From: Gemmatimonadales bacterium
GTDB lineage: Bacteria > Gemmatimonadota > Gemmatimonadetes > Gemmatimonadales > GWC2-71-9
Direction of reading: 5' to 3'
Length of the DNA: 64,000 nt
Assembly (NCBI GenBank): GCA_036265815.1
Contig: DATAOI010000011.1
Coordinates: forward strand, 1-64,000
Under the pieces are notes generated by a model. It saw only the letters and a list, made by a program, of their open reading frames with translations. It was not told the origin of the DNA and searched no databases. Below, in pieces: positions 18,097-49,651 of this stretch (within the stretch, counting starts at the first letter, position 1; each line of letters opens with the position of its first letter). Both the position numbers and the translations under genes were made by a program.

Positions 18097-18944
18097 CGGG
18101 CCTCTCGGTTCACCCGGAGAGCACGCTGGTCGAGCGGGTGCTGCTGGTGCTGCGGGAAGGGCCCAGAGCGGCGGCCACGCTCTGTCATCGGGTGCTGGGT
18201 CTCGCCGGAGCCCAGGAGGCCGTCTGCGACCGCATCGCGGTCGCGCTGCTGGGGGCGGATCCACGGGTGCGCCAGCTCGCGGATGGCCGATGGAGTCTGC
18301 TACCCGAGGCGCAGGGCTCCCCGACGCTCGACGACTGCGCCTTTGCCGTCGTGGACGTCGAGACCACCGGGATGCGGTCCCGCGCGAGCGACCGGATCAC
18401 CGAGATCGCGGTGGTCGTGGTCCAGGGGAACCGGCGGGAGGTGGTGTTCGATTCGCTGGTGAACCCCGGCCGGCCGATTCCTCCGGCCATCTGCGCCATC
18501 ACCAACATCAGCAACGAGATGGTCCGCGACGCCCCGGACTTCGCCCAGGTGGCCGACCAGGTGCTCGCGGCGCTCGCCGGCCGCATCTTCGTGGCCCACA
18601 ACGCCACCTTCGACTGGGGCTTCGTGAGCGCCGAAGTGCGCCGGTCCCGCGATCTCGCGCTGGACGGCCCCCGGCTCTGCACGGTCCGGCTCGCGCGGCG
18701 CCTCCTCAGGGGCATGGTGCGCTCCTGCGGCCTGGACAGCCTCACCCACTACTTCGGGCTGGAGAACGAGGCGCGCCACCGCGCCGCGGGCGACGCCCTG
18801 GTCACCGCCGAGGTGTTGGCCCGGCTGCTTCGTCTCGCCCGGGAGGAGGGGGTGCGTACGCTGCAGGACCTGGAGGGCGTGCAGGCGCGGCGGATGGGCC
18901 GCCGCCGGGCGACGCAAGCGGCCCCGTCACTTCCCCTATTCTGA
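18093..18944 (+). CDS. DEDDh 3'-5' exonuclease with N-terminal extension
   Basis: A 283-residue protein from GTG 18093, overlapping arcA. Residues 1-75 form a helical region, perhaps a winged-helix-like domain. Residues 80-250 are a DnaQ/PolC epsilon-type exonuclease with VVDVETTG, AHNATFDWGF and HRAAGDALVTAEV, covering Exo I, II and III and the DEDDh catalytic residues. The C-terminus is basic. It resembles stand-alone epsilon-like or DNA polymerase III PolC-type exonucleases; its role in repair or proofreading is inferred. Confidence 0.87.
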   Translation: MTGLSVHPESTLVERVLLVLREGPRAAATLCHRVLGLAGAQEAVCDRIAVALLGADPRVRQLADGRWSLLPEAQGSPTLDDCAFAVVDVETTGMRSRASDRITEIAVVVVQGNRREVVFDSLVNPGRPIPPAICAITNISNEMVRDAPDFAQVADQVLAALAGRIFVAHNATFDWGFVSAEVRRSRDLALDGPRLCTVRLARRLLRGMVRSCGLDSLTHYFGLENEARHRAAGDALVTAEVLARLLRLAREEGVRTLQDLEGVQARRMGRRRATQAAPSLPLF

Positions 18945-18973
18945 ATGTCGCCGAGCAGAGGCAACGGGCGCTG

Positions 18974-19810
18974 ATGCGGGCGGCCCTGGCTCTCGCGCTG
19001 ATGGCGCTTGGCTCCGGATCACTCCGGGCACAGAGCCAGCTCCCCGAGGCGGCGATCGAGGATAACTCATTTCTGATCGAGGAGGCGTATAACCAGGAGG
19101 CCGGCGTCGTCCAGCACATCAGCAGCGTGACCCTCACCGGCCCCGGGCGGCGGGATGTGGTGGCGGGCTTCACCCAGGAATGGCCGTTCCGCGGACAGCG
19201 GCATCAGCTGAGCTACACCATACCCTTCCAGATCCAGCAGGGTGACGCGCCGGATGGGTTCGGCGATCTCCTGCTGAACTACCGGCTCCAGCTTCGGAGC
19301 AGCGAACGGGTGGCGGTCGCTCCCCGGCTCTCCCTGATTCTGCCCACCGGAAGCGAAGCCAAGGGATTGGGCGCCGGCACCCTCGGCGGGCAGTTCAACC
19401 TTCCGGTGAGCCTGCGGGTCGGCCCCTCGCTGGCGGCGCATCTGAACGCGGGAATGCAGCTTCTCGCCCGGGTGCGGGACGAGGCGGCCGCCGCGCCGAC
19501 CGACCGCACAGTGACCAGCTACAGCGTCGGTGGCAGCGTCATCGGCCCGGTCACCCGGCCGGTCAACCTGATGCTTGAGTTCGTGCAGGCGTGGTCCGGC
19601 ACGATCGCCCCCGCCGGGGGCGTCACCCATGAGGCGAGCTCCACGCTGAGTCCCGGCATCCGCTTCGCCCTCAACTTCGGCGGGACCCAGATCGTGCCTG
19701 GCGTGGGGATTCCGATCGTGTTCGCGGACGGCGGGCACACCACCGACCTGCTGCTCTACTTCTCGGTCGAGCACTCCTTCCGCCATGGCCAGCAGACCGG
19801 GCCGGATTAG
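18974..19810 (+). CDS. Outer-membrane beta-barrel-like secreted protein
   Basis: ATG 18974 gives 278 residues with a short signal peptide (cleavage likely after LRAQS). The mature part has alternating hydrophobic beta-strand patterns with aromatic girdle residues, ending in LLLYFSVEHSFRHG. It resembles the transporter-like barrels found near aromatic-degradation genes, but the similarity is only by pattern. The long open frame upstream overlaps arcA and the exonuclease and is rejected as coding. Confidence 0.72.
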   Translation: MRAALALALMALGSGSLRAQSQLPEAAIEDNSFLIEEAYNQEAGVVQHISSVTLTGPGRRDVVAGFTQEWPFRGQRHQLSYTIPFQIQQGDAPDGFGDLLLNYRLQLRSSERVAVAPRLSLILPTGSEAKGLGAGTLGGQFNLPVSLRVGPSLAAHLNAGMQLLARVRDEAAAAPTDRTVTSYSVGGSVIGPVTRPVNLMLEFVQAWSGTIAPAGGVTHEASSTLSPGIRFALNFGGTQIVPGVGIPIVFADGGHTTDLLLYFSVEHSFRHGQQTGPD

Positions 19811-38486: not shown

Positions 38487-38570
38487 GCCCGGGTGGCGAA
38501 ACTGGTAGACGCTCGAGACTTAAAATCTCTTGGGGGAAACCCCGTCCGGGTTCGAATCCCGGCCCGGGCA
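38487..38570 (+). tRNA. tRNA-Leu (anticodon UAA)
   Basis: A class II tRNA. The acceptor GCCCGGG (38487-38493) pairs with CCCGGGC (38563-38569), and A 38570 is the discriminator. The anticodon loop CTTAAAA contains TAA. A long variable arm (GGGGGAAACCCC) and the TTCGAATCC T-loop identify tRNA-Leu. The 3' CCA is not encoded. It lies 15 bases after galK. Confidence 0.96.
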
Positions 38571-40701: not shown

Positions 40702-41340
40702 ATGGCGGAGATCATCACCGAGGTCCAGCTGCAGAGGTTTCTGCCCAGTCTCAAGACCGGCCCGATGTGGACCACGGCCCTCAACGCCGCCATGTCGCGC
40801 TTCGAGATCAACTCCCGCGAGCGCGCCGCGGCCTTCCTCGCGCAGGTGGCGCACGAGTCCGCCGAATTCCAGCATCTGCACGAGAACCTGAGCTACCGGG
40901 CCACCCGGCTCATGGCGGTCTGGCCCAGGCGCTTTCCCACCCTCGACGCGGCCCGGCCCTTCGAGCGGCAGCCGGAGCGGCTGGCCAGCTTCGTGTACGC
41001 CAATCGCCTGGGGAACGGGGACGCGGCCAGCGGAGACGGGTGGCGCTTCCGGGGCCGCGGCCTGCTGCAGATCACCGGTCGCGGTAATTACCGGAGCTGT
41101 GGTCAGGCCCTCAATCTTCCGCTCGAGACCCAGCCGGAGCTGCTCGAGTCCGCCGAGCCGGCGGCGCTCGCGGCAGCGCAGTTCTGGCAGTCGCGCGGAC
41201 TCAATCAGCTGGCGGACGACCGCAACGACGACAACGACGACGAGGACTTCGTGGCGATCAGCGTCGTCATCAATGGGGGACGGGCCGGATTGCCCGCGCG
41301 ACGGGCCTACTGGGCGCGGGCAAAGGCGGCCCTGGCTTGA
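40702..41340 (+). CDS. GH19-type chitinase/lysozyme-like glycosidase
   Basis: A 212-residue protein resembling phage-type GH19 endolysins and chitinases. The motif AHESAEFQHLHENLSYRA places catalytic Glu52 and Glu61, and FRGRGLLQITGRGNY is the substrate-cleft signature. No signal peptide or membrane anchor is visible, so export would need a holin, a secretion system or lysis. It could cleave chitin or peptidoglycan. The next operon's promoter begins in its final codons. Confidence 0.85.
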   Translation: MAEIITEVQLQRFLPSLKTGPMWTTALNAAMSRFEINSRERAAAFLAQVAHESAEFQHLHENLSYRATRLMAVWPRRFPTLDAARPFERQPERLASFVYANRLGNGDAASGDGWRFRGRGLLQITGRGNYRSCGQALNLPLETQPELLESAEPAALAAAQFWQSRGLNQLADDRNDDNDDEDFVAISVVINGGRAGLPARRAYWARAKAALA

Positions 41341-41365
41341 CGGCCTAATGGCTCGTTCGTAAAGT
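41337..41365 (+). promoter_or_regulatory. Predicted promoter of the GMC/patatin cluster
   Basis: TTGACG (41337-41342), a 17-base spacer and TAAAGT (41360-41365). The -35 overlaps the stop of the GH19 gene. The start point would be near 41372, about 43 bases before ATG 41415, which follows CAGGAG. This separates the eight-gene cluster from the upstream genes. Confidence 0.65.
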
Positions 41366-41414: not shown

Positions 41415-42467
41415 ATGGTTCAACCCCAGATCGCGCGCTCATCGAACCGCGACCAGGTCGTTCCGTTTACCGCGGGCGACGGGTTCGCCTGCAATCTGAT
41501 CCACGTGCGCGGCGTCCTGCCTCCGACCCGTGGGCCGGTGCTCCTGGTGCACGGTGCCGGAGTGCGGGCCAACATCTTCCGGGCTCCCGTCCGCGTCTCG
41601 CTGGTCGATTACTTGGTCGAGCACGGCTACGACGTCTGGCTGGAGAACTGGCGCGCGAGCATCGATCTCGAGCCGAACCGCTGGACCCTGGACCAGGCGG
41701 CGGTCTTCGACCACCCGGTCGCCGTGCGGAAGGTGCTGGAGCTGACCGGGGCCAAGACACTCTCGGCGGTGGTGCATTGTCAGGGCTCCACCAGCTTCAT
41801 GCTGGGCGCGGTGGCCGGACTGATGCCCGAGGTCACCACCATCGTCTCGAACGCGGTGTCGCTTCACCCGGTGGTGCCGGCGGTGTCGGCCCTCAAGCTC
41901 AAGCTGGCCATCCCGGTGGTGGCGCGACTCACCCCGTTTCTCGATTGCCAATGGGACCTGCACTCGCCGGGGCTTCTGCCCAAGATGATCACCGCGTTCG
42001 TGAAGCTGACCCACCACGAGTGCGATAACCTGGTGTGCCGCTACGCCAGCTTCACGTATGGCACCGGCTTTCCCACGCTCTGGCGGCACGAGAACCTCAA
42101 CCGCGAAACCCATGAGTGGGTAAAGCAGGAATTCGCCCACGTGCCGCTCAGCTTCTTCCGGCAGATCCAGCGCAGCGTGGCGCAGGGCCGGCTCTCACCG
42201 GTGGAAGGGCGGCGGGAGCTGCCGGACGACGTGGTGAGCCGGCCGCCGCACACCGAGGCCCGGGTCGCCTTCTTCGCCGGCGAGCGCAACCGCTGTTTTC
42301 TGCCCGAGAGCCAGCGCCGCACCTTCGATCATTTCAACCGGCATCGTCCCGACTATCACGCGTTCCACGTGCTGGCGGGCTACGGACACCTGGATGTGTT
42401 CATGGGACAGAACGCCGCCAGCGACGTCTTCCCCATCATGCTGGCGGAGCTGCAGCGCCCCCACTGA
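41415..42467 (+). CDS. Alpha/beta hydrolase with Cys nucleophile
   Basis: A 350-residue cytoplasmic-type alpha/beta hydrolase. The oxyanion segment LLVHGAGVRANIF is at 43-55. The nucleophile elbow, normally GxSxG, reads VVHCQGSTS, placing a cysteine (Cys122) at the catalytic position; His325 in AGYGHLD is the likely base. Cysteine is also used by dienelactone hydrolases. From memory, this sequence type (RANIFR, DVWLENWRASIDL, HCQGS) also occurs as the C-terminal domain of large GMC oxidoreductase fusion proteins. It is first in the cluster, 11 bases before the decarboxylase-like gene. Confidence 0.87.
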   Translation: MVQPQIARSSNRDQVVPFTAGDGFACNLIHVRGVLPPTRGPVLLVHGAGVRANIFRAPVRVSLVDYLVEHGYDVWLENWRASIDLEPNRWTLDQAAVFDHPVAVRKVLELTGAKTLSAVVHCQGSTSFMLGAVAGLMPEVTTIVSNAVSLHPVVPAVSALKLKLAIPVVARLTPFLDCQWDLHSPGLLPKMITAFVKLTHHECDNLVCRYASFTYGTGFPTLWRHENLNRETHEWVKQEFAHVPLSFFRQIQRSVAQGRLSPVEGRRELPDDVVSRPPHTEARVAFFAGERNRCFLPESQRRTFDHFNRHRPDYHAFHVLAGYGHLDVFMGQNAASDVFPIMLAELQRPH

Positions 42468-42478
42468 GAGGAGCCGGT

Positions 42479-43345
42479 ATGGCTGGTCCCGCACGGTTGC
42501 GTCAGCAGGCCGGGCGTCACGCGTTGGTGGATGGAATTCCGTTCACTCTGCCGGTCACCTGTACCCCATCGCCGGCGCTGATGGCCGCCTTCCCCATCAA
42601 CCCGGAGCGCGCCGCCGCCCTCCTCGCCGGCAACGAGGTACACCCGTTCCGCCTGTGGAATCGCGGCCTGCTGGTGATCACGGTCATCGACTACCTCTCC
42701 ACCAACATCGGCACCTACATCGAGTTCAGCATCGCGATCGCGTGCACCCACGGCCGGCGGCCCGCGCCTCGCCTGCTGCCGGCGCTGCTGATGAGGCATT
42801 ACGGCACCGGGCAGTGCGTGATCGATCTGCCGGTCAGCACCGAGATTTCGGTCAAGGGTGGCAAGGGCATCTGGGGAATGCCGAAGCACCGGGCCAACCT
42901 GGATTTCACCGTGGGCGACCGGGTGGTGAGCAGCCAGTACGATCTCGACGGCGAGCTGGCGATGCGGATCGAGATCGACCGCCCCGCCCGGACCTGGCTG
43001 CCGGTCAACGTCGGCACCGCCAACTACTGCGCCTTCCGCGGGCTCCTGATGAAGTCCTACATCTACTTCCGGGGCCATCTGGGGATGGGGTTGCTGGGGA
43101 AGGCCCGCGCCCGGCTCACCCTGGGCGATCACCCGCGGCTGGCGCCGCTCAGGCAGCTGGAGATCGCACCCAAGCCGCTGTTCACCGCGTTCATCCCCGA
43201 CGCCATCGGCGTGCTGGACGATCACTTCGAGAGCTGGTTCCTGTCCTTCCCCCAGCCGCCCACCGGGCCGCCCGAGGGAATGGAGAGCGTGGTGGATCTG
43301 GGCCTGGGCGAAGAGTGGCTCCCGCCGCCGGTGGCGGCGCGATGA
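42479..43345 (+). CDS. Acetoacetate-decarboxylase-like protein
   Basis: ATG 42479 follows GAGAGGAG and gives 288 residues. The region GGKGIWGMPKHRANLDF contains Lys136 in the WGxPK setting that supplies the Schiff-base lysine in acetoacetate decarboxylase. The fold matches the ADC superfamily, which also includes aldolase-dehydratases, so the reaction here is open: decarboxylation of a beta-keto acid, or aldol chemistry on a ketone. It overlaps the next gene at ATGA, giving tight coupling inside the cluster. Confidence 0.82.
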   Translation: MAGPARLRQQAGRHALVDGIPFTLPVTCTPSPALMAAFPINPERAAALLAGNEVHPFRLWNRGLLVITVIDYLSTNIGTYIEFSIAIACTHGRRPAPRLLPALLMRHYGTGQCVIDLPVSTEISVKGGKGIWGMPKHRANLDFTVGDRVVSSQYDLDGELAMRIEIDRPARTWLPVNVGTANYCAFRGLLMKSYIYFRGHLGMGLLGKARARLTLGDHPRLAPLRQLEIAPKPLFTAFIPDAIGVLDDHFESWFLSFPQPPTGPPEGMESVVDLGLGEEWLPPPVAAR

Positions 43346-43845
43346 GCCGGGGCGGGGGGGGCATGCGGCACCGACTCTACGTGCTCAACAACGCGCTGCT
43401 GTTCATGGGCGTCTCGATCTACTTCGGGACCGGCTGGTCCACCGCGATCTTCCAGTTCCCGGTGATGCCCTCGATGACGCCGGAGAATTACCGGCTGCAC
43501 TTCCTCCCTCAGATCGCCGCGGCCACCAATTTCTTCACCTTTCTCGTCTCGCTCATGGTCACCACCTGCGTGATCATGATCGTGGTCGAGTGGAAGCGGC
43601 CGGGGCGCTGGCTCCCGGTCATGCTGCTGGCCGCCATCATCGGGGCCACCTGTCTCACCTACTTCGTGATCTTCCCGGTCAACGCCGTGCTCCGGGCCGG
43701 GATCACCGACCAGGAGATGCTCAACCAGGTGATCGCCCGCTGGAAGCTCCTGACCGAACTCCGGGTCGCCATCTGGAGCTTCGAATGGCTGCTGATGATG
43801 CTCTGGTTCGGGCGCAAGGCCTATCAGGCGGAGAGCGCCACATGA
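43342..43845 (+). CDS. Four-helix membrane protein
   Basis: A 167-residue integral membrane protein with four helices near residues 12-30, 60-82, 91-112 and 140-157. A Trp/aromatic-rich first loop (STAIFQFPVMPSMTPENY) lies between helices one and two. Size and layout resemble DUF1772-type proteins, some of which are monooxygenase-like, but I cannot confirm this. It overlaps both neighbours (ATGA at each end). ATG 43363 is an alternative start. Confidence 0.78.
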   Translation: MSRGGGGMRHRLYVLNNALLFMGVSIYFGTGWSTAIFQFPVMPSMTPENYRLHFLPQIAAATNFFTFLVSLMVTTCVIMIVVEWKRPGRWLPVMLLAAIIGATCLTYFVIFPVNAVLRAGITDQEMLNQVIARWKLLTELRVAIWSFEWLLMMLWFGRKAYQAESAT

Positions 43846-44222
43846 TCGAGCGCACCACTCTCCGGCGCGTGCTGCTGCTCATCGCGGTGCTGACCGTGAT
43901 CAGCGGGCTGGTGCAGGCGGTTGCGCCGGGCCGTCTGCTGAGCCTGCTCTCCGCCGAATCCACCGCCACCAGCCGTCACTTCTTCGGGATCGTGGGCATG
44001 TTCATGGTCCTGTTCGGGGGCCTGCTCTGGCACGCACTCACCAGCGGCTCGGCGCAACCGATCCCCGTGTTGTGGGCCGCCCTGCAGAAGTTCGGTGCCT
44101 CGGCCGCCGTGGGACTCGGCGTGATGCACGGCGTGTTCTCCCCAGTGGCCCTCGGCGTGGCCGGCTTCGACCTCCTCTCGGGCATTCTGGCGCTGATGTA
44201 CTGGTGGATGGTGGCGGAGTGA
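43842..44222 (+). CDS. Small four-helix membrane protein
   Basis: A 126-residue protein with four predicted helices, about 9-27, 47-66, 75-98 and 102-123. The loops are very short. No family was recognised. It overlaps the upstream membrane gene at ATGA and the patatin gene at GTGA, so its product should be made in step with theirs, perhaps as part of a membrane complex. Confidence 0.78.
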   Translation: MIERTTLRRVLLLIAVLTVISGLVQAVAPGRLLSLLSAESTATSRHFFGIVGMFMVLFGGLLWHALTSGSAQPIPVLWAALQKFGASAAVGLGVMHGVFSPVALGVAGFDLLSGILALMYWWMVAE

Positions 44223-45769
44223 CCCGGCTCGCCGGCAGCCCCCCGGCCGAGTACAGCGGCCCCAAGCGGTCGCTGATCCTGGCGGGAGGCGGGATGCGGG
44301 TGGCCTACCAGGCCGGCGTGCTCCGCGCGTTGTTGGAAGAGGGTCTCTGCTTTCATCACGCCGACGGAACCTCCGGCGGGACGATCAACCTCGCCATGCT
44401 CTTCTCCGGCCTGTCGCCGGAGGAGATGTGCGATCGCTGGCGGACGCTCCAGGTGAAGGATTTCGTCTCCTTCCTGCCCCTTCGGGAGTACCTCAAGGGA
44501 TTCGACGTCCAGGCGATGGGAGATGCCGACGGGATCATCCGAAAGGTCTTTCCCCACCTCGGCATCGACCCGGGGCGGATCAACGCCGCCAACGGGATGG
44601 CCGGCACCTTCAACGTCTGCAACTACACCAGGAAGACCAACGAGGCCATTCCCCACGACCAGGTGGACCTCGACCTGCTGGTCGCCGGGATCTCGCTGCC
44701 GATCTTCATGCCGGCGGTGGCCCGGAGGGGCAGCCTCTACGTCGACAGCGTCTGGATCAAGGACGCCAACCTCATGGAGGCGGTGCGGCGCGGGGCGGAC
44801 GAGCTCTGGCTGGTCTGGTGCATCGGGAACACGCCGCACTATCGCGACGGGCCGTTCTACCAGTACGTGCACATGATCGAGATCTCCGCCAACGGGGCGC
44901 TGTTCGAGGAGTTCGACCGCATCCGCGAGATCAACCGGCGGATCGCGGCGGGCGAGCACGTCGACGGACGGACCCGTCCCATCATGCTGCACGTGATCCG
45001 GCCGGAGTTCCCGCTGCCGCTCGATCCCGACTTCTACCTCGGACGGATCGACGCGGCCACCCTGATCGAGATGGGATACCAGGATGCCTGCCGCTATCTC
45101 GCTACCCGCGCCCCGACAGGGGTCGCCTTCGAGCCGGGAGTCACTGCCATGAAGCCGTCGGCCGTCGGCATCACCTTCCGTGAGACCATGGAGGGTCCCT
45201 TCGCGCTGGGCGCCGGGACCGCGGAGGAGGGAGCGCGCCAGGGAGAGGCGGTCAAGCCCAAGACCATGCTCACGCTGCACGCCACGATCACGATCGAGGA
45301 CCTGGACGCATTCATCGCCGATTCCCGGCACGGAGGACGGCTCACCGGATCGGTGAGCTTCCCGCCGATGGGCGATCGGATTCCGGCGCGGACCGGGGTG
45401 TTTCGTCTGTTCTCTCCCGCGGAAGACCCGCGGATGCGATACATGGTCTACGAGATGGGCTTCACCCACCAGGGCACCGACTACTATCTGGCCGGAAAGA
45501 AGCGGGTCAAGGACGATCCGGGGCCGGATCTCTGGGCCGATACCACCACCCTGTTCACCCTGCTGCATCGCGGCCGGGACGACCAGGGACCCGTCGTCGG
45601 TGCGGGCATCCTCAGGCTGAGCATACCGGACCTGATGCGGCTGGTCCCGACGATGCACGCGACCGGGGCGGAGTCGCTGACCCAATCCGCCGCCGCGCTG
45701 GCCCGCTTCGGCAAGTTCTTCCTGGGACAGCTGTGGGAGCGGTACGGTAGCCTTGCCCCACCGCGTTAG
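44219..45769 (+). CDS. Patatin-like phospholipase with extra C-terminal domain
   Basis: GTG 44219 overlaps the previous stop and gives 516 residues. The N-terminal half is patatin-like: oxyanion loop GGGMR (23-27) and nucleophile GTSGG (Ser52). The Asp of the catalytic dyad is probably in VDSVWIKDANL (about 175), where typical patatins have DGG. From about 350 to 500 there is a second domain (ITIEDLDAFIADSRHGG, GVFRLFS, GKKRVKDDPGPDLWADTTTLF) that, from memory, also occurs between the GMC and hydrolase parts of large fusion flavoproteins. Probable lipid acyl hydrolase acting with the cluster's oxidase. Confidence 0.85.
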   Translation: MTRLAGSPPAEYSGPKRSLILAGGGMRVAYQAGVLRALLEEGLCFHHADGTSGGTINLAMLFSGLSPEEMCDRWRTLQVKDFVSFLPLREYLKGFDVQAMGDADGIIRKVFPHLGIDPGRINAANGMAGTFNVCNYTRKTNEAIPHDQVDLDLLVAGISLPIFMPAVARRGSLYVDSVWIKDANLMEAVRRGADELWLVWCIGNTPHYRDGPFYQYVHMIEISANGALFEEFDRIREINRRIAAGEHVDGRTRPIMLHVIRPEFPLPLDPDFYLGRIDAATLIEMGYQDACRYLATRAPTGVAFEPGVTAMKPSAVGITFRETMEGPFALGAGTAEEGARQGEAVKPKTMLTLHATITIEDLDAFIADSRHGGRLTGSVSFPPMGDRIPARTGVFRLFSPAEDPRMRYMVYEMGFTHQGTDYYLAGKKRVKDDPGPDLWADTTTLFTLLHRGRDDQGPVVGAGILRLSIPDLMRLVPTMHATGAESLTQSAAALARFGKFFLGQLWERYGSLAPPR

Positions 45770-45784
45770 GGCGGGAGCGCGACC

Positions 45785-46168
45785 GTGACCCGGGAACGCT
45801 GGTGGGGATCGCTGATCATCGCCGGCTGGCTGGTGGCGGGCGTGGGCTGGATGCCGTTCGCCGCCATGTCGGTGTTCCTGCCTCCCATCTCGATTCTTTA
45901 CTGGACTGTCGTGGGGCTTCCGCTGTACCTGGCCACCTGGCGCTGGCTCCGACCCGGGCTCACCCGGATGGAGCGGTCGATTCTGGTGGCCGGCGGCCTG
46001 GGGTGGCTGCTGATCGATCTCTCCGTCGCCGCGTTGTTCCTCAAGCTGCCCTGGCCGCCCACGCTGCGTGAGGCCGTGACCCTGACCTGGCTCTACTTCC
46101 CTCCCTTTTCCGCACTGCTGTTCGGGGCCACCGTCCTCACCCGCCGGCGCCGGCTGCCGGCGCAATGA
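45785..46168 (+). CDS. Small membrane protein
   Basis: A 127-residue protein from GTG 45785 with four hydrophobic segments (about 7-25, 30-52, 65-85 and 97-118) and a basic C-terminus (TRRRRLPAQ), which suggests an inside orientation. No family was recognised. The start of the metallophosphoesterase gene overlaps its stop (ATGA), placing it in the same cluster. Confidence 0.72.
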   Translation: MTRERWWGSLIIAGWLVAGVGWMPFAAMSVFLPPISILYWTVVGLPLYLATWRWLRPGLTRMERSILVAGGLGWLLIDLSVAALFLKLPWPPTLREAVTLTWLYFPPFSALLFGATVLTRRRRLPAQ

Positions 46169-48051
46169 CCCCTCCACTCCAGGGTGCCCGCGAAGGCAGC
46201 GACGCGGTCACCAGCTCGGGCCTTCCGTTCACCCGGAAGAAAATGGTGGACTGGCTGCATCCGACGCAGCTGGCGATCACCGCCGTCAAAGCGGCACTCT
46301 CGGGCGTCTTCGGCGCCTACACCGACAAGCGCGAGCTGCAGGCAGCCCTGCATCCGTGGACCGGCAGCCAGATCCGCTACGACGCCGATTACAGCAGTTA
46401 CACGGGGAAGGATTTCTGGTTCGACTTTGTGGCCGACGTGGGAGATGGGTTCGACTCGACCTACTCCATCGCGTGGCTGCTGGCCCGGAGCGAGGTCATC
46501 CTGCCCGGTGAGGAGAGGCACCCCCTTCCACAGGGCAGGTTCCTGGTCCTCGGCGGCGACCAGGTGTACCCCACCGCGAGCCGCCTGGAGTACCAGAACC
46601 GATTTCGCGGTCCCTACGAGTCGGCGTTCCCGGGTGAGCCGGATCCCCACACGGACCCGAGTCTCTTCGCGCTGCCTGGCAATCACGACTGGTACGACGG
46701 CCTGACCAGCTTCATCCGGCTCTTCTGCCAGGAGCGCGGGATCGGCCGCTGGGCCACGCATCAGACCATGAGCTACTTCGCGCTCAAGCTGCCGAGCCGG
46801 TGGTGGCTCTGGGGCGTCGACATCCAACTCGAGTCGGACATCGACCGGCCGCAGATGCAGTTCTTCGACGCGGTCGCCAAGCAGATGCTGGTGGAGAGTC
46901 CCGCGGGCGAGGCCCCGCGCCTGATCCTTTGTACCGGCCAGCCGAGCTGGACGGAGTGCGGCCCGGAACCTCCCGACGGCCGTGGCATCCGCCACCCTGA
47001 GCCGGACCTGTTCGACAACGAGGCGTTCTTCGAGGACCGCATCATCCGGCGCAACGGCATCAGGCTGGCGGTGACGCTCTCGGGGGACCTGCATCACTAC
47101 ATGCGCTACACCGAGGCGCAGGAGCCGACGGGAGCCGCGGCGCCGGAGCAGGCCACGCAGCGGATCACATCCGGGGGCGGGGGCGCCTATCTCTACCCCA
47201 CGCACCATATGCCCAAAGTGATCGAGCTGCCCGAGGGCATCTCCAAGGTACGCTACCAGCGGCAGGTGATGTTCCCCGATGAAGCCGAGTCCCGCCGGCT
47301 GGCCCACGGCGTCGGGTGGCTGCCGTTCCGGAACCGCTGGTTCACCTTCTTCCTGGGCATGGTGTACCTGATCTATGCCTGGACGCTGCAGAGCGCCAGC
47401 AAGGCCCATCCGATCTGCCCCCATGCCGGCCCTGGCACCGACTCGCTGATGGAGTGCATTCAGAGTCTCGGGGTCCGCAGTCTCGGCGAGGTACTCCTGG
47501 CCTTCGGGAAGGTCCTGCAGCACAGCCCCTCGAACGTGGTGTTCGGCGCGTTCGTGATCGTTGGGCTGTATTTGTTTCGTGCCTCGGAGGATCACTCGTG
47601 GACCCGCTGGTTCGGGGCCCTGCACGGCGTCGCGCATCTCGGGCTCTGCGCGCTCCTGATCTGGGGGATCTCGATCCTCGACCTGCGGGTCCGACATATG
47701 GAGGTCGACAGCCTGTGGCAGGCCCTCTGCTTCGGAGGGCTGATGCTGCTCGGCGGCGGCATCGCCGGCGCGTGGCTCTTCGCCGGGTACCTCTGGGCCG
47801 CGAGTAAGGACCACGCGTGCCACATGAATGAAGTCTTCTCCTCGCAGCACCTCGCCGGGTACAAGAACTTTCTTCGCCTGCGGATCAGCCCGGACGGGCT
47901 CTTGACGATCCACGCGATCGGCGTGCCCCAGGTTCCGACCGGAGACGCCTGGGTCGAGCGGGTGTCACCGGACCCCGGCGAGTCGCAGTTCGCGCCGCCC
48001 GAGAACACCATCGCCGTGCGCCGCATCGACGGTCCGATCCTTTGTCGTTGA
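46165..48051 (+). CDS. Membrane-anchored metallophosphoesterase
   Basis: A 628-residue calcineurin-like phosphoesterase. The metal motifs are DVGDGFDST (91-99), GGDQ (130-133), GNHDWYDG (172-179) and SGDLHHY near 308. About four transmembrane segments follow from residue 405 onwards, and a soluble tail of about 80 residues ends the protein. Family members cleave phosphomonoesters or diesters; substrate is unknown but a lipid-linked phosphate would suit the context. It ends 13 bases before the GMC oxidoreductase gene, with GAGGA in the gap as its ribosome-binding site. Confidence 0.86.
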   Translation: MTPPLQGAREGSDAVTSSGLPFTRKKMVDWLHPTQLAITAVKAALSGVFGAYTDKRELQAALHPWTGSQIRYDADYSSYTGKDFWFDFVADVGDGFDSTYSIAWLLARSEVILPGEERHPLPQGRFLVLGGDQVYPTASRLEYQNRFRGPYESAFPGEPDPHTDPSLFALPGNHDWYDGLTSFIRLFCQERGIGRWATHQTMSYFALKLPSRWWLWGVDIQLESDIDRPQMQFFDAVAKQMLVESPAGEAPRLILCTGQPSWTECGPEPPDGRGIRHPEPDLFDNEAFFEDRIIRRNGIRLAVTLSGDLHHYMRYTEAQEPTGAAAPEQATQRITSGGGGAYLYPTHHMPKVIELPEGISKVRYQRQVMFPDEAESRRLAHGVGWLPFRNRWFTFFLGMVYLIYAWTLQSASKAHPICPHAGPGTDSLMECIQSLGVRSLGEVLLAFGKVLQHSPSNVVFGAFVIVGLYLFRASEDHSWTRWFGALHGVAHLGLCALLIWGISILDLRVRHMEVDSLWQALCFGGLMLLGGGIAGAWLFAGYLWAASKDHACHMNEVFSSQHLAGYKNFLRLRISPDGLLTIHAIGVPQVPTGDAWVERVSPDPGESQFAPPENTIAVRRIDGPILCR

Positions 48052-48064
48052 GGAGGATGCCTGG

Positions 48065-49651
48065 ATGGCCAATCAGTTCGACGTGATCATCATCGGCAGC
48101 GGCTTCGGAGGGGCGGTGACGGCGTGCCGCCTGGCGGAGCGTGGGTTCAAGCGGATCCTGGTGCTGGAGCGCGGGCGGGAGTGGAATCCCGACAACTACC
48201 CGTGGAAGTCAGGCCACTGGACGTACAATCCCGACTGCCCAGAACACGAGAGCGGGTGGCTCGACCTCCGAATCCTGGACGATATGGTGGTGGCCCAGGG
48301 AGCCGGCGTGGGCGGAGGGTCGCTGATCTACGCCAACGTCTCCATCGAGGCCAAGCCGGACCTGTTCAATCGGGGGTGGCCGCCCGAGATCACCTACCAG
48401 GAGCTCGCGCCCTACTACCGGGCGGCGGGGGCCATGCTGAAGGTGGCGGAGCTGCCGGACAATCAGCTCACCGAGCGCTTCAAGCTCATGCGTGAGGCGG
48501 CGCAGAAGATCGGTGCGGGGGAGCGGTTCCGGAAGCTCTCCCTGGCGGTCACCTTCAGCGACACCTGGAATTACGGTCTGGAGGACCGGTTCGACGAGCG
48601 GCACTCCGTCACCTGGGCCAACGAGCACGGCAAGACCCAGGGAACCTGCGTGCACCGGGGGTACTGCGACATCGGCTGCCCGGTGCAGGCGAAGAACACG
48701 CTGGACCTCAACTATCTCGCTCGGGCCGCGCGGCTCGGCGCCGAGATTCGCGCGCTCCACTTGGCGCGCGCGATCGAGCCGATCGAGCAGGGATACCGGG
48801 TACGGTTCGACGTCATCGATCCGGACCGGCACACCCGGACTCCGGGTATGCATACGGCCGACCGCGTCATTCTCGCCGCCGGCTCGCTGGGTTCCACCGA
48901 ACTGCTCCTCCGCTGCCGGGACCAGTACCGGACCCTGCCGCGACTGAGCCCGTTCCTGGGGAAGAACTGGAGCTCGAACGGCGACTTCCTGACGCCGGCG
49001 TTCTATTCGAAGCGCGAGCCGCCGGTCTCGCCCAGCCACGGGCCGACCATCACGGCCGGCATCGATTTTCTCGACGGCCCACCGGGCGCGGCGTTCCTCA
49101 TCGAGGACGGCGGAATTCCGGACCTGCTCAAGGCCTACCTCGATGGCCGGCTCAACGGCCGTGGCGGGAGCCTGCAGGCCCGCACCTTCCTGCACGGGCT
49201 GCGTGAGGCGGCGCTCGAGCGCGATGCCCTCGCCCGGATGATGCCCTGGTTTGCCCAGGGGGTCGACGCGGCCGACGGACGCCTCTACCTCGGTCGCAAG
49301 TGGTACGCGCCGTGGCGGCGGGCCCTCAAGCTCAACTGGGACGTCGACCGCTCCGCCACCATGATCCAGGCGATCGTGGCCATGCACCTCCGTCTGAGCC
49401 AGGCGACCGGCGGCCATCCCTGGGTGCCGCCGACCTGGACCGTGCTCAAGAACCTGGTGACGCCCCATCCGCTGGGCGGCTGCAACGTCGGCATCACCCA
49501 GTCTGACGGTGTGGTCGATCACCGGGGCGCCGTCTTCGGCTATCCTGGTCTGTACGTCGCGGATGGCGCTATCATCCCCGAGGCGGTCGGATTGAATCCC
49601 TCCCGCACCATCGCCGCCCTGGCGGAGCGGATTGCGGCGCTCATGAGCTGA
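48065..49651 (+). CDS. GMC-family FAD oxidoreductase (cholesterol-oxidase-like)
   Basis: A 528-residue flavoprotein. The FAD-binding GSGFGGAV (residues 11-18), GVGGGSLIYANV (about 80) and catalytic HPLGGCN (about 468) with NPSRTIAALAERI are typical of cholesterol-oxidase-like GMC enzymes. A cysteine-rich insert CVHRGYCDIGCPVQAKNT (near 198) is found in this subgroup. There is no signal peptide. It oxidises an alcohol of a sterol-like or other lipid, using oxygen or another acceptor. It is the last gene of the cluster. Confidence 0.88.
   Translation: MANQFDVIIIGSGFGGAVTACRLAERGFKRILVLERGREWNPDNYPWKSGHWTYNPDCPEHESGWLDLRILDDMVVAQGAGVGGGSLIYANVSIEAKPDLFNRGWPPEITYQELAPYYRAAGAMLKVAELPDNQLTERFKLMREAAQKIGAGERFRKLSLAVTFSDTWNYGLEDRFDERHSVTWANEHGKTQGTCVHRGYCDIGCPVQAKNTLDLNYLARAARLGAEIRALHLARAIEPIEQGYRVRFDVIDPDRHTRTPGMHTADRVILAAGSLGSTELLLRCRDQYRTLPRLSPFLGKNWSSNGDFLTPAFYSKREPPVSPSHGPTITAGIDFLDGPPGAAFLIEDGGIPDLLKAYLDGRLNGRGGSLQARTFLHGLREAALERDALARMMPWFAQGVDAADGRLYLGRKWYAPWRRALKLNWDVDRSATMIQAIVAMHLRLSQATGGHPWVPPTWTVLKNLVTPHPLGGCNVGITQSDGVVDHRGAVFGYPGLYVADGAIIPEAVGLNPSRTIAALAERIAALMS

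Follow-up and report, generated by a model that had tools for sequence, protein, structure and literature searches.

Several described enzymes bear on the system considered here. Polyhydroxyalkanoate (PHA) synthases place a Cys nucleophile on an alpha/beta hydrolase fold, and the enzyme pair that degrades polyvinyl alcohol (PVA) consists of an alcohol dehydrogenase and an oxidised-PVA hydrolase. Enzymes of the acetoacetate decarboxylase (ADC) family act on beta-keto acids, and GMC flavoproteins of the cholesterol-oxidase type act on secondary alcohols. The FAD glucose dehydrogenase (FAD-GDH) of Burkholderia cepacia is reported to bind a 3Fe-4S cluster through Cys212, Cys218, and Cys222 (PMC6719666). 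Here we describe an eight-gene operon at positions 41415-49651 of a 64,000-nucleotide stretch of a Gemmatimonadales genome (the window, meaning the whole stretch analysed), in which an alpha/beta hydrolase (ABH), an ADC-like protein, a patatin-like acyl hydrolase, a membrane metallophosphoesterase (MPE), a GMC flavoprotein, and three small membrane proteins are encoded together. With a rough probability of 0.5, we propose that it specifies a membrane-associated multi-enzyme module that tailors or degrades a hydrophobic, probably beta-hydroxyacyl-type molecule and is organised by a calycin-like barrel domain. The recognised enzymes appear to belong to known superfamilies; what appears new is how they are combined, together with the unnamed barrel and the way it is fused to four of them.

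The genes lie tightly packed on the plus strand, at exactly the coordinates given by the first-pass annotation, and most of them recur together in the 80 loci described below. Their junctions from g1 to g8 measure +11, -4 (ATGA), -4 (ATGA), -4 (GTGA), +15, -4 (ATGA), and +13 nucleotides (nt), so the ATGA/GTGA overlaps noted earlier occur at four of the seven junctions and the remaining three are spaced by 11-15 nt; the start codons are predictions. Transcription from one promoter, also claimed earlier, is not borne out, because the promoter/terminator scan stayed close to shuffled sequence (2 sites in the region versus 0.8 +/- 1.1); a promoter-like site matching 9 of 12 positions lies at 41337-41365. 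The features are as follows.

41415..42467, plus strand: g1, alpha/beta hydrolase (ABH) with a Cys nucleophile (Abhydrolase_1; HCxG box)
42479..43345, plus strand: g2, acetoacetate-decarboxylase-like protein (ADC; PF06314)
43342..43845, plus strand: g3, small membrane protein, weakly anthrone-oxygenase-like (E 0.0042; two hydrophobic segments)
43842..44222, plus strand: g4, small membrane protein (three hydrophobic segments)
44219..45769, plus strand: g5, patatin-like acyl hydrolase with a C-terminal barrel domain (PF01734)
45173..45766, plus strand: unnamed C-terminal barrel of g5, the stretch modelled with AlphaFold2
45785..46168, plus strand: g6, small membrane protein (two hydrophobic segments, no family)
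46165..48051, plus strand: g7, membrane metallophosphoesterase (MPE), purple-acid-phosphatase-like (fold match and motif residues)
48065..49651, plus strand: g8, GMC flavoprotein, probable iron-sulfur dehydrogenase (PF05199, PF00732)
48647..48682, plus strand: Cys motif of g8, CVHRGYCDIGCP (C-x5-C-x3-C-P), spaced as in a 3Fe-4S GMC dehydrogenase

To judge from its fusion partners, the C-terminal barrel of g5 is a hub domain common to four enzymes, because in other genomes it is joined to patatin, GMC, ABH, or ADC. We compared 80 loci (56-66% identity), which are the best 80 among the matches listed when an alignment of 11 ABH members was used in a single scan of named genomes. Leaving aside the patatin-barrel protein of the window itself, these loci hold 41 patatin-barrel fusions and seven in which g4 precedes the patatin and barrel. 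The barrel is attached to the C-terminus of a GMC protein 14 times and to its N-terminus twice, and rarer arrangements comprise three barrel-ABH, three GMC-barrel-ABH (two from one species), two ADC-barrel, and one GMC-ABH fusion. The GMC-barrel-ABH triple fusion is additionally found on three plasmids, and of eight further ABH matches (29-35% identity) in the Nostoc-phylum and Shewanella-class samples described below, seven belong to open frames 1,130-1,334 aa long, every one a GMC-barrel-ABH fusion, the eighth (L146) being a lone ABH. Triple-fusion proteins thus occur in several phyla, and the fusion of GMC oxidase, the extra domain of the patatin, and alpha/beta hydrolase that the first-pass annotation had described is real. 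On the strength of these GMC, barrel, and ABH fusions, the core of the system seems to be GMC, barrel, and hydrolase, with ADC, patatin, phosphoesterase, and small membrane proteins as seemingly variable partners. Free-standing barrels also exist (for example in L025, L042, L067, L087, and L091), and wherever a genome in the sample of the window's phylum has a clear barrel match (five genomes), the barrel accompanies GMC, ABH, or patatin. The two ADC-barrel fusions (L092, 6426-7940; L097, 11095-12591) come from differently labelled phyla, and the ABH genes of these loci are sisters in the tree.

None of 56 barrel members matched Pfam or NCBIfam, and a PDB sequence search with the barrel gave no match. 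Its AlphaFold2 model, built from 56 alignment rows (pLDDT 85.3, pTM 0.81), predicts eight strands followed by terminal helices, and VIA-align grouped it with beta-barrels, among them the erythrocruorin linker 2gtl_N (Z 11.3, root-mean-square deviation [rmsd] 3.3 over 115 residues) and avidins (Z about 8-9). We use "calycin-like" as a description of this predicted fold and claim no superfamily membership. The likeliest role of such a barrel is to bind the greasy substrate or to dock the enzymes together.

Gene order and neighbourhood link most of the remaining genes to this core. ADC directly follows ABH in all 70 same-strand cases, and in 67 of them the two are less than 90 nt apart by their matched ranges. 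Of the 67 loci that span 12 kb or more, 63 have the barrel, 60 ADC, 58 GMC, 51 patatin, 31 g4, 27 g3, and 21 the window-type MPE; the ABH-anchored scan biases these frequencies towards ABH carriers. The order found in the window (ABH-ADC-g3-g4-patatin-MPE-GMC) is repeated in L057, L062, and L089; in other loci GMC and MPE sometimes lie upstream of ABH. A tree without L091, which was removed because of a stop, covers the other 79 loci and spans 12 NCBI phylum labels and one KSB1 record with a patchy spread; it does not fix the position of the window, and its bootstrap had not converged. L056 and L058 are separate contigs from a single species, and kinship is close among the Nostoc and the Corallococcus loci. 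Within the cluster, gene-distance correlations range from r 0.53 to 0.95, with no control gene. One further fusion call, ADC with GMC in L049, was set aside because the stretch is interrupted by stops on the minus strand.

Whole-genome profiles of ABH and ADC agree closely. In 200 genomes of the window's phylum, close ABH and close ADC occur in the same three; in 194 genomes from the phylum of a Nostoc genome they occur in the same two; and in 369 genomes from the class of a Shewanella genome, ADC occurs in three, all of which have close ABH, as does one additional genome. For the latter two samples the counts apply to the matches listed, at E 1e-20 or better. Combining the three samples, all eight genomes with close ADC have close ABH, and eight of the nine with close ABH have ADC; the sample centres G207 and G211 were picked as cluster carriers, and G222 and G201 were carriers already known. 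The earlier note had named an absence of fused or adjacent copies, or unrelated phylogenetic profiles, as grounds for abandoning its proposal; for the core genes we found fusions, neighbours in many phyla, and matching profiles. Its proposal of a lipid-processing system therefore stands in part: fusions, neighbourhood, and co-occurrence hold up, and the GMC oxidase label is probably to be replaced by GMC dehydrogenase.

The GMC flavoprotein exceeds both Pfam cut-offs of its family (GMC_oxred_C PF05199, 56.1 versus 24.6 bits; GMC_oxred_N PF00732, 40 versus 23 bits), and its closest solved structures and closest NCBIfam model are cholesterol oxidases. We rejected its assignment as a plain cholesterol oxidase, given a score of 236.5 bits against a cut-off of 850 for NF058674 and an added Cys motif. 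This motif, C-x5-C-x3-C, is present in 74 of 74 GMC domains, 64 of which have the ferredoxin-type C-x2-C-x2-C-x3-C form; g8 of the window has Arg at the second Cys position of the latter. The spacing of its three cysteines is identical to that of Cys212, Cys218, and Cys222 in B. cepacia FAD-GDH (PMC6719666). Because the motif is of the 3Fe-4S/4Fe-4S type, g8 is probably an electron-passing dehydrogenase with a predicted iron-sulfur (Fe-S) cluster rather than the oxidase of its first label. As a control, we inspected two other PF05199 genes of the host genome: one (L117, a 627 aa open frame) has a four-Cys motif, CHYCGQCNRGC, and the other lacks it, so Fe-S-type GMC proteins are not special to the cluster. 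A search with the Cys stretch alone returned insignificant matches only, some of them to ferredoxin-type motifs. Two GMC lineages occupy the slot, in that 16 of 59 proteins compared with g8 share 54-65% identity with it and 43 share 33-40%, with none between.

The other named enzymes also look active, because the HCxG box of ABH, the Lys of ADC, and the Ser of patatin are kept almost universally. In g1, which scores just below the Abhydrolase_1 cut-off (25.4 versus 25.8 bits) and is weakly similar to gastric and lysosomal lipases, the presumed nucleophile is C122 in HCQGS and the His is H325 in GYGHLD; both are invariant across 11 aligned ABH sequences. The HCxG box is retained in 93 of 95 ABH domains, which upholds the earlier Cys-hydrolase label, and both exceptions are extra copies with Gly. 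These second hydrolase copies, at 12014-13021 in L078 and 4785-5846 in L085, may be non-catalytic partners. The NCBIfam models closest to ABH are PHA synthases, and 8 of 11 members match TIGR01836 (2e-6 at best). We ruled out g1 as a PHA synthase itself, as it scores 16.5 of 622.65 bits with TIGR01838 and 15.7 of 365.3 bits with TIGR01836. The decarboxylase g2 exceeds the PF06314 cut-off (47.3 versus 29.8 bits) and carries its presumed Schiff-base Lys, K136, in GGKGIWGMPKH; the Lys-containing motif (IWGxPK context) is retained in 72 of 72 ADC domains. This residue, presumably the catalytic one as in the family, aligns in a weak match (E 0.84) with the Lys of the ADC structure 3c8w; a PDB sequence search with ADC at E 0.01 gave nothing useful. 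The patatin g5 exceeds its PF01734 cut-off (74.9 versus 27.7 bits), with the Ser of the SGG motif present in 60 of 60 patatin domains and the full GxSxG in 53.

The phosphoesterase of the window falls under the Pfam Metallophos cut-off (17.7 versus 21.5 bits) and is recognised by its predicted fold. The g7 model (pLDDT 82.9) matches pig purple acid phosphatase 5uq6 (Z 23.5, rmsd 3.0, 261 residues), Foldseek with the same model gave a best E of 6.1e-8, and the GGD, GNHD, and GDxH motif residues are invariant in 22 sequences. Residues 347-533 are modelled as long helices including hydrophobic segments, which form an insertion within the catalytic fold, as the aligned range reaches the C-terminal strands. 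Across the 80 loci, 25 have the window-type MPE, seven a second metallophosphoesterase (type B), four a third (type C), and five a DUF6765 protein, so that 41 loci have one of four types, none has two, and 39 have none found. Zero overlap between 25 and 16 of 80 loci has a hypergeometric P of 0.001, uncorrected for kinship. Types B and C were seen in Pseudomonadota only, and a search of 14 genomes whose loci lack the window-type MPE, which included no positive genome, found none. DUF6765, which by its motif may be a phosphoesterase, is encoded within the cluster or next to it at loci that showed no metallophosphoesterase (L029, 8873-9934; L037, 8822-9919; L056 and L058, both 18610-19662; L093, 8757-9899). 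A CHAT-domain protein, assigned by Pfam runs on two of the seven, adjoins type B in all seven loci (L059, L075, L079, L081, L088, L099, and L100); it lies at the cluster end except in L099, where it is upstream on the opposite strand.

The small membrane proteins are less readily classified. g3 reaches Anthrone_oxy at E 0.0042 only, one of its relatives passes PF08592 (28.8 versus 27.3 bits), and a Pfam search gave no convincing family for g4 or g6. Among the loci searched, g6 was found nowhere except in the window. In seven myxobacterial loci (L026, L041, L047, L048, L052, L066, and L086) g4 is fused to the N-terminus of the patatin, an arrangement that would anchor the patatin in the membrane. 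A DUF4345-type membrane protein (tested with Pfam in L055) lies beside g3/g4 genes in L050, L055, L057, L060, L062, L065, and L099, and in all of these except L060 its gene directly precedes the patatin. Comparing the profiles of the small membrane proteins among themselves and against DUF4345 gave no informative result.

The host genome comprises 4.59 Mb in 119 contigs, with the window forming part of contig C11, and ABH, ADC, patatin, and GMC each occur in it as a single close copy that lies inside the cluster. A tRNA-Leu (taa) at 38487-38570 separates a run of housekeeping-looking genes, presumably xseA, ispA, dxs, recN, and galK from their translations, from the accessory stretch with the cluster, an island-like position. 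The hydrolase is absent from three same-genus genomes in the sample, and an insertion-site search in nine other same-genus genomes gave only short flank matches in eight. One genome of the "BD2-11 clade" (L103) has conflicting labels, being placed in Gammaproteobacteria at NCBI and in the window's own class in the genome set. The recurrent neighbour families of the cluster are annotated in part, so that uptake genes could still be among them. An intradiol-dioxygenase-family gene lies just upstream on the opposite strand in five closely related myxobacterial loci (L041, L047, L048, L052, and L053; PF00775, tested in L048). On plasmid pSID of Rhodococcus pyridinivorans, a distant ABH (L019, 7956-9029) follows PKS and thioester-reductase genes and precedes a crotonyl-CoA carboxylase/reductase gene, a possible biosynthetic context.

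A PHA-synthase-like ABH, an ADC, and a GMC protein acting on secondary alcohols all fit chemistry at the beta position, and for this reason we suggest a beta-hydroxyacyl-type substrate. We infer the substrate, the reaction order, the electron acceptor, and a physical complex of the separate proteins in the following scheme, whose exact route, whether release, oxidation, and decarboxylation or acyl cleavage or transfer, we hold less likely than not. The membrane purple-acid-phosphatase-like enzyme would remove phosphate and the patatin would release acyl groups, together freeing a lipid-derived beta-hydroxy acid or ester that the barrel would hold. The GMC protein would then oxidise the secondary alcohol beta to the carbonyl, passing electrons through its predicted Fe-S relay to a membrane acceptor, after which ADC would decarboxylate the beta-keto acid and/or the Cys-hydrolase would cleave or transfer the acyl group. 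The small membrane proteins could serve in anchoring or in accepting electrons. A bolder and rather improbable extension is that the barrel acts as a non-covalent carrier of water-insoluble molecules, in the manner of an acyl carrier protein (ACP), and presents one lipid in turn to phosphatase, patatin, Fe-S GMC dehydrogenase, decarboxylase, and Cys-hydrolase. If so, the lone GMC-barrel-hydrolase fusion would be its smallest version, in which the alcohol is oxidised and the bond beside the new ketone is cleaved.

Several observations weigh against the proposed module. L045 carries the hydrolase alone in 21 kb, and ADC is absent from 7 of the 67 longer loci, whose genomes have no close ADC elsewhere either (one 28% match was found). 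In the sample of the window's phylum, G168 combines a distant ADC (25%) with the lack of any ABH match. ABH lies far under every PHA-synthase cut-off (16.5 versus 622.65 bits), and the Foldseek matches of the barrel, to LmcA and lipocalins, are weak (best E 6.7e-3). Of 11 triple-fusion loci, 8 showed none of the other cluster genes in the stretch examined, so one fixed pathway is not forced. Lastly, what fusion and neighbourhood show is functional linkage rather than a complex in this organism.

Among other explanations, the cluster could serve the catabolism of an outside hydrophobic compound such as a sterol, terpenoid, wax, or plant polyester, its enzymes de-esterifying, dephosphorylating, and oxidising this compound and the barrel serving merely in oligomerisation or targeting. 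This is unlikely, though less so than the alternatives that follow; the kinship of g8 to cholesterol oxidases (236.5 bits) and of g1 to gastric and lysosomal lipases, the dioxygenase-family gene of the five related myxobacterial loci, and the soil bacteria and myxobacteria among the carriers would all suit it. Against it, the GMC protein scores far under the cholesterol-oxidase cut-off, and the cluster is present in Nostoc, Nitrosomonas, and methanotrophs, which are not known to live on sterols, waxes, and the like. Expression data for Roseithermus sacchariphilus strain RA in xylan medium count in favour of catabolism and of the proposed module alike, with fold changes of 1.88 for the GMC gene AWN76_007025 and 2.70 for the patatin gene AWN76_007050 next to 0.43-0.60 for three other GMC genes, as given in Table 6 of PMC7409140, where the significance marks are not legible. 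We infer that these two are cluster genes, as their five-apart tags fit the six-gene order GMC-ABH-ADC-g3-g4-patatin of L051 from the same species.

Alternatively, the enzymes could tailor a specialised lipid or polyketide-like acyl chain that the cell makes itself. The patchy spread across 12 phylum labels, the PHA-synthase resemblance of ABH, and the setting of the distant Rhodococcus ABH favour such a biosynthetic role, but no polyketide synthase (PKS), ACP, or ligase turned up in the annotated neighbourhood (most recurrent neighbours are not annotated), and we judge it improbable. A stress or conflict system, in which the patatin is a membrane-damaging effector partnered by a CHAT protease and a phosphoesterase and spread by transfer, has a very slim chance. 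It would account for the constant pairing of CHAT protein and type B, for the match of the CHAT domain to PADLOC SAVED_CHAT, and for the island-like position after tRNA-Leu; a dehydrogenase and a decarboxylase are unsuited to an effector system, however, and a clear CHAT protein occurs in only 7 of 80 loci. A known anti-phage defence system was rejected, as none of the seven window proteins tested (all but g6) matches PADLOC. Least probable of all, an operon of convenience, in which individually useful lipid enzymes travel together with no common substrate, would explain the varying partners and the two distinct GMC lineages in one slot but neither the fusion of the barrel to four different enzymes nor the matching genome profiles of ABH and ADC.

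The membrane-associated module organised by the barrel is the reading that we carry forward. A linked enzyme set under 12 phylum labels, together with an unnamed domain on four unrelated enzymes, points to a widespread and apparently undescribed bacterial lipid chemistry. We found no description of the cluster, the hub barrel, or the four-enzyme fusions in the open-access literature searched, which leaves papers beyond it uncovered. Because GMC, barrel, and hydrolase occur on one protein, the core reaction could be assayed with one purified enzyme, and the barrel family provides a marker for annotating the system.

Compared with described systems, each component departs from its nearest relative. 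The B. cepacia FAD-GDH (PMC6719666) shares with g8 the GMC fold and C-x5-C-x3-C ligands followed by Pro, whereas most g8 relatives (64 of 74) have four ferredoxin-like cysteines, the overall sequence of g8 is nearer to cholesterol oxidases, and neither a gamma hitchhiker nor a cytochrome subunit was recognised in the operon. Cholesterol oxidase (Streptomyces 1b4v; NF058674) resembles g8 over the whole GMC sequence, active-site motifs HPLGG and NP included, but at the Cys motif of g8 the 1b4v sequence shows a gap of six residues and lacks Cys. Purple acid phosphatase 5uq6 has the catalytic fold and phosphoesterase motif residues of g7, which differs in its predicted helices with hydrophobic segments (347-533) inside the aligned fold. 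The calycin-type barrels, including avidin, lipocalins, and the erythrocruorin linker barrel, are eight-stranded and antiparallel, as is predicted for the barrel of g5, which differs in having no PDB sequence match, in its extra C-terminal helices, and in being a fusion module of enzymes. The ADC family (PF06314; 3c8w) includes g2 by the Pfam cut-off and by the Lys in its IWGxPK context, but the match to 3c8w is weak and a His follows the Lys in g2. PHA synthases (TIGR01838, TIGR01836) are the nearest NCBIfam models to g1 and have the Cys-nucleophile alpha/beta hydrolase fold that g1 probably shares, yet g1 falls far short of their cut-offs, its nucleophile box is HCxG, and no other pha gene was recognised in the operon. 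Finally, the PVA pair offers a possible analogy in its logic of secondary-alcohol oxidation and then an alpha/beta hydrolase, from which the cluster differs in having a Cys nucleophile, a barrel, an ADC, and a phosphoesterase.

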